In this document: positions 151 through 5,485 of the stretch, piece by piece
Layout: each line of letters opens with the position of its first letter
Position numbering within the stretch: the first letter of the stretch is position 1
Assembly: GCA_020444775.1 (NCBI GenBank)
Contig: JAGRHX010000121.1
Span: forward strand, 1 to 5,485
Reading direction: 5' to 3'
DNA: 5,485 nt
Source: Gammaproteobacteria bacterium
Lineage (GTDB): Bacteria > Pseudomonadota > Gammaproteobacteria > HK1
Notes under the pieces: model-generated
Databases searched by the model: none
What the model saw: only the letters and a program-made list of their open reading frames with translations
What the model was told of the DNA's origin: nothing
Translations under genes and position numbers: made by a program

Positions 151-265
151 GGCACCGTTTACAACTGTAGCAATTGCCCTCCCGTATCGACGTCGTCCTG
201 ACGCACGCGCTCGCGACACTGTGCAGCGGGTATTGCAAGTGCCGGCATTCGTCGGCCGCCCGAAC

Positions 266-270
266 AGGAG
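266..270 (+). promoter_or_regulatory. RBS of DUF1127 gene
   Basis: AGGAG lies eight bases before ATG 279. It picks this start over an upstream in-frame ATG at 174, which would add 35 residues with no resemblance to the family. Confidence 0.75.
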
Positions 271-278
271 AGTCAATC

Positions 279-593
279 ATGTCCAGCAATCATGTCGGTC
301 CCGCCGCGGAGACGATCGAAAGCGGTGAAGGCAGCGTTGCCGTGCTCAGTGCGGGTGCGCTGCGGCAGGCGGCACGCGCGGCGCTGAGCGCATCGGCACG
401 TACGGTGGCTCAGCAGCTGCGTTCGGTGCTGCGGCTGTGGTATCGAGAGCACGCGATTGCGCGCACGGTGGATACCTTGCGTGCGCTCGACGACGCGACG
501 TTGCGGGATATCGGCCTGACCCGATGCGGTATACGCGCGGCGGCCGAGCAGGCGGTCGACAAGGAGCACAGCCGCGCAAGCGACGCCGCATGA
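279..593 (+). CDS. DUF1127 domain protein (YjiS-like)
   Basis: A 104-residue small protein of unknown biochemical role. The C-terminal half carries the DUF1127 signature: a basic, aromatic lead-in (YREHAIARTVDTL, about residues 55-67), then LRALDDATLRDIGLTR (about 67-82), the hallmark of the family. The N-terminal 50 residues are alanine- and serine-rich, not recognisable, and probably partly disordered. Family members are short and typical of Proteobacteria. Some have been linked to RNA-related regulation or phosphate and carbon metabolism, but nothing here shows which role applies. The start at 279 is supported by AGGAG at 266-270. The gene stands alone on the + strand and converges with the leftward operon ending at 810. 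No cysteine cluster, signal peptide or membrane segment is visible. Confidence 0.85.
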   Translation: MSSNHVGPAAETIESGEGSVAVLSAGALRQAARAALSASARTVAQQLRSVLRLWYREHAIARTVDTLRALDDATLRDIGLTRCGIRAAAEQAVDKEHSRASDAA

Positions 594-739: not shown

Positions 740-790
740 CCGGGATACGCGGCGAGGCCGACGACGGCCCAAGCAAGCCGCGTATCCCGG
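740..790 (-). terminator. Long nested hairpin, probable operon terminator
   Basis: Perfect 14-bp inverted repeat: CCGGGATACGCGGC (740-753) with GCCGCGTATCCCGG (777-790). Its 23-base loop holds a second perfect hairpin, GGCCG-ACGA-CGGCC (756-769). It begins 19 bases beyond the TGA of the selenoprotein gene (812-810). Reading leftward, it is followed after about a dozen bases by CTTTTC, a weak T tract. The position fits a terminator or 3' mRNA-stabilising structure for the leftward operon. It could also block read-through from the + strand DUF1127 gene. The lack of an immediate T run leaves the mechanism open. Confidence 0.6.
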
Positions 791-809: not shown

Positions 810-2036
810 TCAGGCGCCTGGGGTCGGGCTCACCCAGGGGGCCGGAACGATGAACCGGGAGCCGACCGTGTTGAAGCCGCGATCCTCACTTGCCAGCGCC
901 GCGGTTCGCAGCGCGCGCAGCAGTGCACCGGCCACCGTTCGGTTCCAGAACCAATCGTTGATGGCGTTGCTGCTCGGCCCGGAACCATCCGCCTGCACCG
1001 CCTCCGAATACAGCGTCTTGATGTCATCGGCGATATAGCGCAGCAGCAGGGCGGCCGAGAGACCGTCTCGGATGCTGCCCGGCAGTGGCTCGTCGAGAAA
1101 ACCCACAGCGAATGGTGCCCAGTCAGCGGGCTCGAGCCCGGCATTCCCGACCGTGGTGCGACCGAAGCGTTGTTGCGCGCGCCGCCAGTGCGGCAGCACG
1201 GTGTCGAGCTCCGCCTGCAGCGCGGCACGCCAGTGCTCGGGCGCGCCGGGCCCCGCGGCGGTCGGCGGGGTGGTCGTGATGCCTGGCGTCCAGTCGCCGC
1301 TCTCGCGCATGCTCGGTGCATCCTCGCTGAAATCCTCGAGCAGCACCGGGCCGTTCTTGCGTTCGAGCAGATCCAGCGCGGCCAGCAAGACGCAACGCTG
1401 GAAGGCGGCGTCGCCCGGTTCTCCAAAAGGGCGGCCGAGGGGAAAGGGCACCCAGAGGCCACGCGGTGGACGGGTGGCTTCCATGTGAGGACGCACCAGC
1501 CCGACGACCACGGTGGCGATGCCATGCGTCTCCAGCATGTGTGCAAGCGCGCTCACGGCACGCGTGCAGAAGGGTCAGACCGGGCACAGTAGCAGCGCAT
1601 CGACCGCTTCGGCCCGCAACGCCTCGCTCAGGGCGGCGGCGGTCGAGTCCATCGTCAACGGATCCGTCGAGCCCATGACCGAGTAGTTCGTAGGCGCGAC
1701 CGAACCGATCAGACCTTCGTCGGCCAGCTCGCGGAGCCGATCGAGGGGGTAGGCGACATTCGGATCGCGATGGAAGCCGGTACGGTCGAAGTTGATGGAG
1801 ATATGTGTCATCAACAGGTCGGATGCGGGCCTCGATGTATCCAGCCTTCGAAACCCGGCGCTACCGGCCTCGAACGGCGGGTCCTCGCGGCCATGTAGCG
1901 CGGCGCTGGTGAGGATGGCGACGCGGCTGTCACGCAACGGCGGTGGCGTGACCCAGGGGCTACCGGGTAGCTGCGGGAGCTGCAGCGCCAGCACCGCATC
2001 GCGGGTGGGCTGTGGGATGTCTTCCATACGTGCCAT
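810..2036 (-). CDS. GrdB/PrdB-like reductase, selenoprotein with in-frame UGA
   Basis: Predicted 408-residue protein of the glycine/sarcosine/betaine/D-proline reductase selenoprotein B family. An in-frame TGA at 1577-1575 (residue 154) is read as selenocysteine. Residues before it (VAILTSAALH 39-48, NFDRTGF 82-88, NYSVMGSTDP 117-126) and after it (GLVRPHMEATRPPR 179-192, WVPFPLGRPFGEPG 195-208, NDWFWNRT near the C-terminus) match one continuous family protein in one frame, with no other stop. The active site reads CPVUPFC (151-157), a UxxC redox motif where relatives carry Sec or Cys. A SECIS-like hairpin follows the UGA. Start ATG 2036 is chosen because GAGG lies six bases upstream; ATG 2261 would overlap the dehalogenase gene. 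No signal peptide is seen, so it is probably cytoplasmic. Known relatives form a covalent selenoether intermediate or reduce C-N bonds. The substrate here is unknown, and no GrdA or other Grd/Prd subunit is nearby. It is last in the TetR-dehalogenase operon. The alternative reading is a nonsense-mutated pseudogene. Confidence 0.85.
1542..1568 (-). promoter_or_regulatory. Predicted bacterial SECIS hairpin
   Basis: In the - strand mRNA this is a near-perfect stem-loop. The lower stem is UGCA (1568-1565) with UGCA (1545-1542). A single C·U mismatch follows. The upper stem is GCGUGC (1563-1558) with GCGCGC (1552-1547), one pair being a U·G wobble. The apical loop is CGUGA (1557-1553). The hairpin starts six bases after the UGA, and 17 bases separate the UGA from the loop. 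The loop has G at its second position. As I recall the bacterial SECIS model, these values (upper stem of at least 4 bp, loop of 3-14 nt, G in the first two loop positions, 16-37 nt from UGA) all fit. Bound SelB would deliver Sec-tRNA here. Confidence 0.75.
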
Positions 2037-2121: not shown

Positions 2122-2826
2122 TCAGGCGCGGCTGAGCAGGGCTGGTAGTTCCGCGAGCGTGCGGATCTCCCGGTCAGGACTGCCCGGCAGACGCTCGCGT
2201 TGCTGGCCGTAGCGGTTGCACCAGATGACGCGCATGCCGAACGCGGACGCGGCGTGCGCATCCCAGGCGTTCGAGGATTGAAAGGCGATCGCTGATGCTG
2301 GTACGCCCAGCGTGTCTACTGCGAGCTCGTAGACCCTCGGATCGGTCTTGAACACACCCACCTGCTCGACCGAGAGCACGTGGTCCAGCAAGCCTTGCAG
2401 GTTGGAGCCTGCCACCGCCGCCTCGAGCATCGCCGGCGAGCCGTTGGACAGGATGGCGGTGACGAAGCCGGCCGCCCGCAGCTCACGCAGCACATCGGGC
2501 ACCTCGGAGAAGCAGCGCAGCGTCCGGTACAGATCCATCAGCCGCTCGCGCAGACCCGGGCTATCGATGCCCAGCGTTTCGAGGCTGAAATCGAGCGCGT
2601 CACCGGTGACCTGCCAGAAGTCCACGTGCGCGCCTTGCAGGCTGCGCAGCCAGGTGTACTGCAGCTGCTTGTCACGCCACAGCGTCGTCAGCGGCCCGAC
2701 CGCGTCACCGAGCACATCACGACAGTCAGCGGCCGCCGAGCCGAAATCGAACAGCGTGCCATAGGCATCGAAGACACAGCAGCGTACGGGGATGGTTGCA
2801 GTGGAGGCGTTCCGCGGCTCGTTCAT
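2122..2826 (-). CDS. L-2-haloacid dehalogenase, type II (HAD superfamily)
   Basis: A 234-residue protein predicted to convert (S)-2-haloacids to (R)-2-hydroxyacids by hydrolysis, in the cytoplasm. Its length is normal for the family. All catalytic motifs are visible. Motif I is CVFDAYGTLFD with the nucleophile Asp20, plus Tyr22 and Thr24. The halide/carboxylate Arg is Arg51 (LWRDKQLQY). Motif II is LSNG with Ser127 and Asn128. Motif III has Lys160 (GVFKTDPRVYELA). Motif IV is QSSNAWDAHAASAFG with Ser184, Asn186, Trp188 and Asp189. The only visible departure is Thr161 where a Pro commonly follows the Lys. Start ATG 2826 has GGAG seven bases upstream (2837-2834). It lies 61 bp after the TetR stop and 85 bp before the selenoprotein start, all on the same strand, so one transcript is likely. 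True haloacid activity is inferred. Related HAD enzymes may act on other small acids. Confidence 0.9.
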   Translation of the reverse strand: MNEPRNASTATIPVRCCVFDAYGTLFDFGSAAADCRDVLGDAVGPLTTLWRDKQLQYTWLRSLQGAHVDFWQVTGDALDFSLETLGIDSPGLRERLMDLYRTLRCFSEVPDVLRELRAAGFVTAILSNGSPAMLEAAVAGSNLQGLLDHVLSVEQVGVFKTDPRVYELAVDTLGVPASAIAFQSSNAWDAHAASAFGMRVIWCNRYGQQRERLPGSPDREIRTLAELPALLSRA

Positions 2827-2887: not shown

Positions 2888-3502
2888 TCATGAGCGGTGG
2901 TTGGCCGGGGATTGAATACCTGCCTCGAGCAGCGCCAGGGCCGGTCGCACCATGCCTTGCAGCAGCTCGCGCTCGGGTCGTGTCCGTGCGGCGACCCGCA
3001 ATCCCAGCACCAGGCCGAGCAGCATGCGCGCGGTATCGGCGGGATCGAGGGTGGCCGGCAGGCCCGGGTTCGACTGCGCGCGCTGCAGACAACGCAGGAA
3101 GAATGCTTCGATCTCGGCCAGATAGCCCGCTATGACCACGCCTAGCGCCGTATCGTGCGGTGCGACCTCCAACGCTGAGTTGACGATCAAGCAGCCGCGC
3201 CGGTCGGGATCGGCCAGTGACCGGCTGATGAGACCATCGAAGAACGCGCGGATCGCCCCGAGCGGTGATTCCATGGCTTCCAGCGACTCGATACGAGCCT
3301 GCATGGAGCGCTGCGCGTAACGCGCCAGGGCCTCGACGAACAGGCCGCGCTTGTCGTTGAAGGCGTTGTAGAGGCTGGGTGGATTCAGGCCGGTCGCGTT
3401 GCTGAGATCACGGATCGATGTGGCCTGCAGTCCATGCCGCCAGAAGCACTCTATGGAAGCATCCAGCACGGCCTCGGCATCGAATGTACGTGGGCGCGCC
3501 AT
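2888..3502 (-). CDS. TetR/AcrR-family transcriptional regulator
   Basis: A 204-residue one-component repressor-type regulator. The N-terminus has the TetR helix-turn-helix. MARPRTFDAEAVLDASIECF is helix 1, WRHGLQATSIRDLSNATGL holds the first helices of the HTH, and NPPSLYNAFNDKRGLF (about residues 40-55) is the recognition helix and its following turn, with the diagnostic SLYNAFNDK. The remaining 150 or so residues form the variable ligand-binding domain, including CLIVNSALE, a motif common in one large TetR subgroup. ATG 3502 is preferred to GTG 3517 because GGAGG (3515-3511) lies eight bases upstream of it, and the GTG overlaps this RBS. It is the first gene of the leftward operon, so it probably autoregulates it and may also control the divergent transporter. 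The ligand cannot be read from the sequence. Confidence 0.92.
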   Translation of the reverse strand: MARPRTFDAEAVLDASIECFWRHGLQATSIRDLSNATGLNPPSLYNAFNDKRGLFVEALARYAQRSMQARIESLEAMESPLGAIRAFFDGLISRSLADPDRRGCLIVNSALEVAPHDTALGVVIAGYLAEIEAFFLRCLQRAQSNPGLPATLDPADTARMLLGLVLGLRVAARTRPERELLQGMVRPALALLEAGIQSPANHRS

Positions 3503-3510
3503 GTCAGTGT

Positions 3511-3515
3511 CCTCC
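3511..3515 (-). promoter_or_regulatory. RBS of TetR gene
   Basis: A strong GGAGG on the - strand, eight bases before ATG 3502. It decides the start, since the in-frame GTG at 3517 begins within it. Confidence 0.8.
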
Positions 3516-3541
3516 ACGTTTGCACCGGCTCGTTGCTACAC

Positions 3542-3762: not shown

Positions 3763-5001
3763 ATGAACCGTCTGCGCGCAGCCCTGTCAATGCTCGCCGC
3801 AGCCGTGCTCTGTGCATGCGGCGAGCCGGAAGCGTCCATCCCGACGTTGGGCTGGTACGTGTTCGACGAGCCCTCCGGTGCCTTCGTAGAGGCGGCGCGA
3901 CGCTGCTCGGCGGATTCGGCTGGCGACTACCGCATCGAGGTCAGGGCCTTGCCTTCGGATGCGTCGCAGCAGCGCGAGCAGCTGGTCCGGCGTCTGGCCG
4001 CGGCCGATCCGGATATCGATCTGATCGGCATGGACGTCATTTGGACCGCTGAGTTCGCGCAGGCCGGCTGGATCCTGGCCTGGTCGCGGCACGAGACCGC
4101 CGCAGTCAGCGCGGGGCGGCTGGCCGCGACGGTCGAGAGCGCAAGCCATGCCGGTCGTCTGTGGGCGGCACCCTTCACCACCAATACCCAGCTACTGTGG
4201 TATCGAAGCGATCGGGTCCAGACGCCGCCCCGCACCTGGGACGAGATGATCGAACACGCCGAGGCGCTCGGCGAGGGCGGGGCGATCGCCGCCCAGGGCG
4301 AGCGCTACGAGGGTTTCACCGTGTTCTTCGTCTCGCTGCTCGCCTCGGCGGGTGGCAGCGTGCTCGACGCAGAGGGTGAGCGGCTCGCTCTGCAGACGGA
4401 GCCGACCCTGCGAGTGCTCGCGCTCATGCGTCGTCTGGGGCGGTCCAAGGCCGCGCTGTCGGACCTGCCCAATGCCCGCGAGGACCAGTCGCGGCTGGCT
4501 TTCGAGGCCGGCAGGGCGGCCTTCATGCTCAACTACACCTATGTCTGGCCAAGCGCGGCACGCAACGCGCCGCAGGTGGCCGCGCGGATGCGCTGGGCGC
4601 GCTGGCCGGCCGTAGACCCAAGGCGGCCCAGCCGGGTGGCGCTGGGCGGAATCAATATCGGGGTCGGTGCCTTCACGCGTCATCCGCGCCTGGCCTTTGC
4701 CGCAGCGGCCTGTCTGGTCTCGCTGGACAATCAACGCCGGGCGGCGGTCCAGGGCGGTCTGCCACCCACCGCGAGCGCGCTCTATGACGATCCCGAGGTG
4801 GTCCAGGCCCTGCCGTTCGCGGCGACCTTGCGCGAGACCCTGCGCGATGCGGTGCAGCGTCCACGCACACCGCTGTACAGCGACGTGTCGCTCGCGATCG
4901 CGCGGACCCTGCATCCGATGCATCGTATCGAGCCTGAGCGCGACCTCGATCGATTGCGCGAGGCTCTGCGCCGCGCCCTGAGCTCGCGAGGTCTGCTTTG
5001 A
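3763..5001 (+). CDS. ABC transporter substrate-binding lipoprotein (carbohydrate type)
   Basis: A 412-residue extracytoplasmic solute-binding protein of the MalE/ThuE-like family 1. Residues 1-19 are a lipoprotein signal: MNRLR, then a hydrophobic AALSMLAAAVL and the lipobox LCAC, with Cys19 as the predicted lipidated residue. Family features in order: TLGWYVFDEPSGAFVEAA at the start of the mature protein, DIDLIGMDVIWTAEFAQAGW, WAAPFTTNTQLLWYR, RTWDEMIEHAEALGEGG, FTVFFVSLLASAGGSVLD, GRAAFMLNYTYVW and, near the C-terminus, GGINIGVGAFTRHPRLAFAAAACL and QGGLPPTASALYDD. These match binding proteins for trehalose, maltose and related sugars or glycosides, but the ligand cannot be fixed. ATG 3763 is the only start that puts the signal peptide at the N-terminus. 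The upstream in-frame extension has no family match. Its RBS is weak. The permease gene overlaps its stop. Confidence 0.9.
   Translation: MNRLRAALSMLAAAVLCACGEPEASIPTLGWYVFDEPSGAFVEAARRCSADSAGDYRIEVRALPSDASQQREQLVRRLAAADPDIDLIGMDVIWTAEFAQAGWILAWSRHETAAVSAGRLAATVESASHAGRLWAAPFTTNTQLLWYRSDRVQTPPRTWDEMIEHAEALGEGGAIAAQGERYEGFTVFFVSLLASAGGSVLDAEGERLALQTEPTLRVLALMRRLGRSKAALSDLPNAREDQSRLAFEAGRAAFMLNYTYVWPSAARNAPQVAARMRWARWPAVDPRRPSRVALGGINIGVGAFTRHPRLAFAAAACLVSLDNQRRAAVQGGLPPTASALYDDPEVVQALPFAATLRETLRDAVQRPRTPLYSDVSLAIARTLHPMHRIEPERDLDRLREALRRALSSRGLL
4987..4991 (+). promoter_or_regulatory. RBS of permease gene, inside the lipoprotein gene
   Basis: CGAGG lies six bases before TTG 4998. It supports the non-ATG start and points to translational coupling with the upstream gene. 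Confidence 0.6.
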
Positions 5002-5485
5002 GTCGACTCGATACAAAACCGGCCGATGGCGCGAACGGCGCCGATGCGCGGCACGAGCGGCTTGCGTGGCTGCTCTGTGCGCCGGCCGTGCTGATCATGC
5101 TGCTGGTCACGGCCTATCCGATCCTGCATGCGGTCGGGCTGTCGCTGTACGCGTATGACCTGCGTTTCCCCGAGCGCAGCGCGTTCGTCGGTCTGGACAA
5201 CTATCTGAGCGTGCTCGGGTCCTCCGTTTGGTGGCTGGCGTTGTGCAATACCGCGCTGATCACGGCCTGCTCGGTGAGCGTCGAGCTGATGCTGGGTATG
5301 GCGATTGCGCTGCTCATGCACCGCATGCTGGGGCAGGGATGGTTGCTACGCGGTACGTTGCGTTCGGCGATGTTGGTGCCCTATGCGATCATCACCGTGG
5401 TTGCGGCGCTGGCCTGGCGCTTCGCCTTCGACCCGGTGGTCGGCTTCGTCAATCCCTGGCTGGGCGTGGAGCAGGCCTGGCTGGC
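4998..5485 (+). CDS. ABC sugar permease, MalF/ThuF-type (partial, 3' end cut)
   Basis: The first 162 residues of an inner-membrane permease subunit of a carbohydrate-type ABC importer. The frame is open to the window edge. Visible features are a polar cytoplasmic N-terminus (residues 1-21), TM1 at about 22-50 (LAWLLCAPAVLIMLLVTAYPILHAVGLS, written in part), then YAYDLRFPER and FVGLDNYLSVL (63-73), the FxGLxNY signature of MalF-type permeases. TM2 is at about 78-107 (ALCNTALITACSVSVELMLG) and TM3 begins near 122, with SAMLVPYAIITVVAALAWRF typical of the family. The start is TTG 4998, which shares TTGA with the lipoprotein stop. No in-frame ATG exists before TM1. The EAA loop, which contacts the ATPase, would lie beyond the window. 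A second permease and an ATPase are expected downstream. Confidence 0.88.
   Translation, partial: MSRLDTKPADGANGADARHERLAWLLCAPAVLIMLLVTAYPILHAVGLSLYAYDLRFPERSAFVGLDNYLSVLGSSVWWLALCNTALITACSVSVELMLGMAIALLMHRMLGQGWLLRGTLRSAMLVPYAIITVVAALAWRFAFDPVVGFVNPWLGVEQAWL

Follow-up and report, generated by a model that had tools for sequence, protein, structure and literature searches.

The question raised by this locus is whether a gene that appears in two pieces is broken, or whether it is a single gene in which a stop-like codon is translated. On the minus strand of the window, i.e. the whole stretch of 5485 bases that was analysed, two open reading frames (ORFs) in one frame meet at TGA 1577-1575, the second being open down to TGA 812-810. 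This arrangement, described earlier in a sequence-only reading, was borne out by the ORF listing and by translation. Read through, positions 810-2036 (-) form a single frame of 408 residues plus a stop, with U at 154, and the context of the UGA in the conceptual translation is CPV-U-PFC-TRAV. It is proposed, on the grounds of sequence comparison, that this UGA-split gene is a selenoprotein gene (probability roughly 0.92). That codon 154 (1575..1577, -) is read as selenocysteine (Sec) appears, on the same comparison, firmer still. The gene would thus look broken in two because a stop-like UGA within it is almost certainly the codon for an active-site selenocysteine.

The coding sequence (810..2036, -; 408 codons, Sec at 154, stop TGA 812-810) was delimited by the ORF listing, the translation and a profile match, and is PrdB/GrdB-like. 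The mechanical ORF list places the start of the first ORF at 2261. ATG 2036 was favoured over this position because the full-length relatives P0003 and P0004 begin with MARTEDIP, matching MARMEDIP in the window protein; direct reading of the sequence also revealed an SD-like GAGG just 5' of ATG 2036. The claim that one continuous protein runs across the TGA is sustained by the PrdB profile TIGR04483, which matches residues 31-225 (E 3.4e-30), and by the existence of full-length relatives without a stop (P0003, P0004 and P0293). The codon of Cys157 (1566..1568, -), the partner in the UxxC redox motif, is invariant in the 13 long forms aligned.

A Dehalococcoidales MAG from a named genome collection was found to have a locus (L001) split at the same codon. 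As an even draw, 400 genomes of the phylum of this MAG, which is not the phylum of the window itself, were searched. A match was present in 97 genomes, 81 of them with a TGA-holding match and 16 with stop-free forms only, and 303 had no match; each of the 17 matches that cover 300 query residues or more contains a single TGA. Codons were checked in the window, in 30 of those 81 genomes and in all 18 stop-free places spanning the column; L011 and L012 were excluded because they duplicate L001. The column of codon 154 holds TGA in the window and in 30/30 Sec-class loci examined and a Cys codon (TGC or TGT) in 18/18 stop-free places, so that across the 49 places read it is TGA or Cys only. The window therefore has what is expected of a bacterial selenoprotein, an in-frame UGA at a Sec/Cys column. 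In a pairwise alignment the annotated PrdB of Terrisporobacter has its TGA, Sec at residue 151, in the same column, which places the window's Sec in the active-site column of PrdB. The earlier proposal that the TGA stands at the redox position where relatives have Sec or Cys is upheld by these counts. A sense codon other than Cys, which would have pointed to a nonsense mutation, was sought in relatives of 28-43 % identity and in the three full-length proteins, and none was found. Relatives of about 300 aa on Roseomonas and Haematobacter plasmids (L074, L075) have Cys, encoded by TGC, in the Sec column; on the Roseomonas plasmid the gene next to the Cys relative is annotated SelO.

Bacterial SECIS elements are described in the available text of PMC1088965 as having a G in a small apical loop. 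Just downstream of the UGA the window has a hairpin of this kind (1542..1568, -), which consists of a 6-bp stem (1547-1563) with the loop CGUGA, and of four further base pairs below a 1x1 mismatch. It was recognized by folding, by covariation and by a held-out model. The hairpin lies 11 nt past the TGA, and the stem with its 5-nt loop occupies positions 14-30, counting the T of TGA as 0. All six stem pairs are present in 25 of the 31 TGA loci, window included (10/13 long forms and 15/18 short forms); among the six loci with an incomplete stem three retain five pairs, two retain four and L039 retains one. The six-pair stem was found in 0/18 Cys places, a contrast that is partly one of clades because all 18 are short forms from a separate clade. 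The relatives compared belong to a single phylum and are 33-43 % identical; an unknown base in L020 led to its omission from the structure alignment and the tree. Covariation of the stem amounted to 0.642 against a mean of 0.185 after shuffling, with 0/500 shuffles as high, and it was at most 0.122 when the stem was slid by 1 to 3 columns. At the hairpin position of the Cys set no covariation was present (0.072). The number of pairs changed on both sides (5 vs 3.8, 24/500 shuffles as high) was unremarkable.

A covariance model built from 30 loci, with the window held out, gave the window site 41.0 bits (E 5e-12) and the runner-up 8.0. When the structure was taken out of this alignment, the window site scored 24.3 bits, which means that about 17 bits come from base pairing. 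In the Terrisporobacter record and the 18 Cys loci the model scored at most 13.4 bits, the maximum being at the homologous site of L046. The UGA site of Terrisporobacter PrdB obtained only 5.2 bits, which indicates that the hairpin model is specific to the subfamily of the window protein and does not capture every SECIS. In the window the hairpin folds with -15 kcal/mol at 37 nt (z -2.64); at 53 nt the fold is not exceptional (z 0.17), and an Rfam scan of the window gave 0 matches. TGA 812-810 was also considered as a second Sec site and was rejected, the 37 nt downstream of it folding no better than shuffles (z 0.49). In the mechanism envisaged, the hairpin just 3' of UGA 154 would recruit SelB with Sec-tRNA(Sec), selenocysteine would be put in where relatives have Sec or Cys, and the gene would yield one 408-residue selenoprotein.

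With regard to the machinery required, selB (E 1e-60 or better) was detected in 76/81 genomes with a TGA-holding match, in 12/16 with only stop-free matches and in 223/303 without a match. The association of selB with a TGA-holding match (Fisher p 4e-5, kinship not removed) lends weak support, because kinship was not removed and the selB background is high. A tRNA-Sec was found over the cut-off in 16/16 relative genomes tried, including the five without a selB hit at this threshold, with a match of 65-75 bits in each; the model also exceeded the cut-off in 5/14 control genomes. Together with a column restricted to TGA and Cys and a covarying hairpin absent from the Cys relatives, the tRNA-Sec in the relative genomes argues for Sec at the redox position, as had been claimed. 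We infer that the host itself makes selenoproteins.

To which family does the joined protein belong? The PrdB-like alpha/beta domain comprises residues 31-225 (1362..1946, -), with a model pLDDT of 93.4 in addition to the TIGR04483 match. It is followed by a helical domain at residues 245-408 (813..1304, -; 164 aa), which would mark a long subfamily. A structure model of the joined protein reached a mean pLDDT of 93.4, with U154 just before helix 155-170 and a helical C-terminal part, and the C-terminal domain modelled alone reached 93.9; the latter gave no convincing match among solved structures. According to this model, the N-terminal PrdB/GrdB-type alpha/beta domain would carry the active-site U154-P-F-C157 at a helix start. 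The earlier assignment to the glycine/betaine/D-proline reductase selenoprotein B family stands as far as the fold is concerned, but not for the activity of these reductases. PrdB shares the domain and has its Sec codon in the same column; however, it measures 241 aa against 408 for the window protein, which scores 105.2 bits with TIGR04483 against a cut-off of 300. The PrdA partner was found in 0/12 long-form relative genomes and not among the window proteins scanned, whereas it was found in the positive control record (1/1). Protein B of glycine, sarcosine and betaine reductase (GrdB/GrdF/GrdH) is matched weakly by Pfam PF07355 (GRDB), above the gathering cut-off (29.2 vs 22 bits) but over profile positions 275-344 of 347 only. 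The four NCBIfam models of GrdB type (TIGR01917, TIGR01918, NF040794 and NF040795) remained at 39.9 to 52.5 bits, below their cut-offs of 65.45 to 800. Judged by its sequence, with the PrdB cut-off missed, an extra C-terminal domain and no PrdA in relatives, the protein is not a D-proline reductase proper.

PrdB and GrdB employ Sec for the reductive cleavage of an activated substrate. This use is documented in the accessible part of PMC13188914. The window protein is most likely a selenol reductase of the PrdB/GrdB fold, a prediction in which the selenolate would have as its target a polarised bond (C-N or C-halogen) in a small substrate, or a similar electrophile. The intermediate would then be resolved by Cys157, and cellular thiols would regenerate the enzyme without the PrdA subunit of D-proline reductase. 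Once its halves are joined, the enzyme is complete, its structure is modelled with confidence and a reaction can be proposed for it. For the GrdB-like Sec protein FarB of Cloacibacillus, cleavage of the C-F bond of fluoroacetate has been proposed (PMC10838667, available text). According to the same text, FarB, a Sec protein of the GrdB family, comes from a farACEB operon that also encodes a GrdE-like subunit, a radical SAM protein and a transporter. In contrast, the neighbour in the window is a hydrolytic enzyme, a type II haloacid dehalogenase (2122..2826, -) that lies 85 nt upstream of the selenoprotein gene and scores 209.5 bits with TIGR01428 (cut-off 125.4); its best solved match is the L-2-haloacid dehalogenase 1jud (E 2e-55). 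Because of the use of Sec by PrdB and GrdB, of the analogy with FarB and of the best match of the upstream gene to L-2-haloacid dehalogenases, dehalogenation is the most concrete hypothesis for the reaction, though not a probable one. The same-strand run begins with a TetR-family regulator (2888..3517, -; Pfam TetR_N and TetR_C_13), and as the spacings are only 61 and 85 nt, one transcript of TetR, dehalogenase and selenoprotein may exist.

The neighbours of the long form were compared in 13 regions from 11 genomes. Links between genomes were mostly those of evident close kin, or consisted of the gene itself and its antisense frames. A haloacid dehalogenase directly upstream was also present in 1/13 long-form genomes checked. 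In this genome (G098, 5.2 Mb) the selenoprotein gene has a type II haloacid dehalogenase gene on either side. The upstream one ends 61 nt before the gene on the same strand as in the window (TIGR01428 177 bits) and is 29 % identical to that of the window; the downstream one is on the opposite strand (194.5 bits), and the genome holds four haloacid dehalogenases over the TIGR01428 cut-off. In G162 the long-form gene (L096, G162:C428) is broken into pieces that show additional stops and a change of frame; a haloacid dehalogenase match 5.5 kb away from it scores 116.5 bits, which is below the cut-off. A further search around G098 gave no long-form genome of its class besides G162. In the other 11 long-form genomes no listed dehalogenase hit shared a contig with the gene at 30 kb or less (the contigs are drafts, and that of G164 has the gene at its end), and the nearer relatives G389, G219, G306 and G320 had no haloacid dehalogenase neighbour.

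For 18 long-form loci in 13 genomes (17 loci plus that of G162), with dehalogenase hits taken at E 1e-30, 0.021 hits were expected within 1 kb and two were seen (one locus), and within 6 kb 0.13 were expected and three were seen (two loci). Both distances were chosen after the data had been seen, and G098 and G162 are kin. In view of this, of the 29 % identity and of nearer relatives without such a neighbour, the dehalogenase neighbourhood is a lead and not proof. Four genomes from two lineages (L062, L066, L070 and L072) carry a dehydrogenase of the malate/lactate type (Ldh_2), the usual substrates of which are 2-hydroxy acids, no more than a few kb from the long form.

The reading that survives best beside a substrate reductase accepts the Sec, and is compatible with a selenoprotein gene, but takes the product for a general thiol/selenol redox protein or a peroxide reductase and not for a reductase of C-X bonds. 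Such a role would agree with UxxC being a common thiol-redox motif in the literature as far as available, with the absence of PrdA and with the finding that no neighbour is common to most long-form genomes. On the other hand, both the family score and conserved residues beyond the motif indicate PrdB/GrdB, characterised members of which reduce substrates according to the accessible texts, and a dehalogenase neighbour occurs in two distant lineages. A general redox role therefore seems the less probable of the two, and we lean, without great confidence, towards a substrate-reducing selenoenzyme. It is doubtful whether one can go as far as to regard the long form as a separate family without a pyruvoyl partner, in which the C-terminal domain supplies the substrate site and which acts as a Sec-dependent reductive dehalogenase beside the L-2-haloacid dehalogenase under a TetR switch.

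The remaining explanations deny the Sec itself and have to be weighed against the relatives known from databases. The 238 different relatives considered comprise the best 120 of 241 and the best 120 of 880 matches, and 235 of these have their start at query residue 156-176, immediately after the UGA, in a listing whose length filter N-terminal halves are too short to pass; the other three are full length with Cys. P0002, which is 99 % identical and lies on a 1466-base contig, was called as the same C-terminal fragment. Closer relatives (60-65 % identity) are known as fragments only and stand outside the tree. This tree, built from the shared domain of 53 sequences, unites the 14 long forms (99/95) and places the window as sister of two Cys proteins of full length (100/99); it requires at least three changes between Sec and Cys. 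The tree program warned of long branches, and P0293 was found after the tree had been made. L060 (G389:C27:8487-13236) consists of three TGA-holding long-form copies in a row, with a fourth on another contig of G389, and the copy of the Dehalococcoidales MAG (L001, 3786-4990) has a frame break after residue 338 besides its TGA.

That a nonsense change or a sequencing error has split an ordinary Cys enzyme is suggested by a single contig with one TGA inside the frame, but is very improbable, given P0002 with the same fragment, the 235 listed relatives that begin just past the same place and a covarying hairpin that is found only where the TGA is present. For the family as a whole this explanation is not tenable in the light of the fragment starts and the TGA-linked hairpin. 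No better are the chances that the UGA is a true stop and that the 3' half is a separate gene starting from GTG 1556 or ATG 1538. These start codons are indeed just downstream and are used by gene callers, but such a split would cut through the UxxC motif and its helix, is at odds with the three Cys proteins of full length and would leave the hairpin unexplained, for which reasons two separate genes were rejected. Least probable of all is an alternative code with UGA read as another amino acid throughout the organism, with which an open frame through the TGA is compatible, but which was rejected as TGA serves as the stop codon of this CDS, of the dehalogenase (2124-2122) and of the solute-binding protein (4999-5001), and as the stop-free relatives have Cys at the column.

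The selenoprotein that is thus preferred belongs to a known type. PrdB-type Sec proteins with UxxC have been known since 2005, with 42 sequences in the Sargasso Sea set (PMC1088965), and 235 Sec sequences vs 110 Cys forms were counted in the GOS set (PMC2398784). According to the available texts of these two papers they rank with the most frequent selenoproteins of sea water, and the marine metagenome 'PrdB' selenoproteins share UxxC, pfam07355 and the predominance of Sec over Cys. Their length and C-terminal domain are not stated in those texts, so that they may include the long form. A selenoprotein 'proline reductase' is listed for Anaeromyxobacter and Geobacter in the accessible part of PMC1794560. 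Within the open-access literature, as far as its texts are available, we found no account of a long form whose C-terminal domain is helical. The long form may therefore be new as a variant of the known PrdB-type selenoproteins, unless the 2005 and 2008 marine sets include it. According to the available text of PMC2398784 selenoprotein genes are almost universally misannotated. Among the matches listed, the long subfamily consists almost only of C-terminal fragments, mostly unnamed or called hypothetical protein and without a precomputed Pfam domain. The combination of TGA, hairpin and UxxC motif is offered to pipelines as an annotation rule.

Just past the stop of the selenoprotein gene a perfect 14-nt inverted repeat with a 23-nt gap (740..790, -) possibly marks the transcript end; a pattern scan found no T-run terminator. 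Divergent from the selenoprotein run, positions 3763-5483 (+) encode an extracellular solute-binding protein and the first part of an ABC sugar permease. The window is probably a whole contig, because this solute-binding protein is recorded in the protein database on a contig of exactly 5485 bases. Among the 120 relatives listed for it ten bear an organism name; all ten are Pseudomonadota, and eight belong to the Chromatiaceae or to genera of that family, which on this one gene makes a gammaproteobacterial host likely. A DUF1127 protein is encoded at 174-593 (+), with a true start that is probably further in than the listed TTG. Near the left end of the contig lies a tandem array (14-96) of 5.2 copies of a 16-bp unit (GCCCAGCTGACGCGAG).
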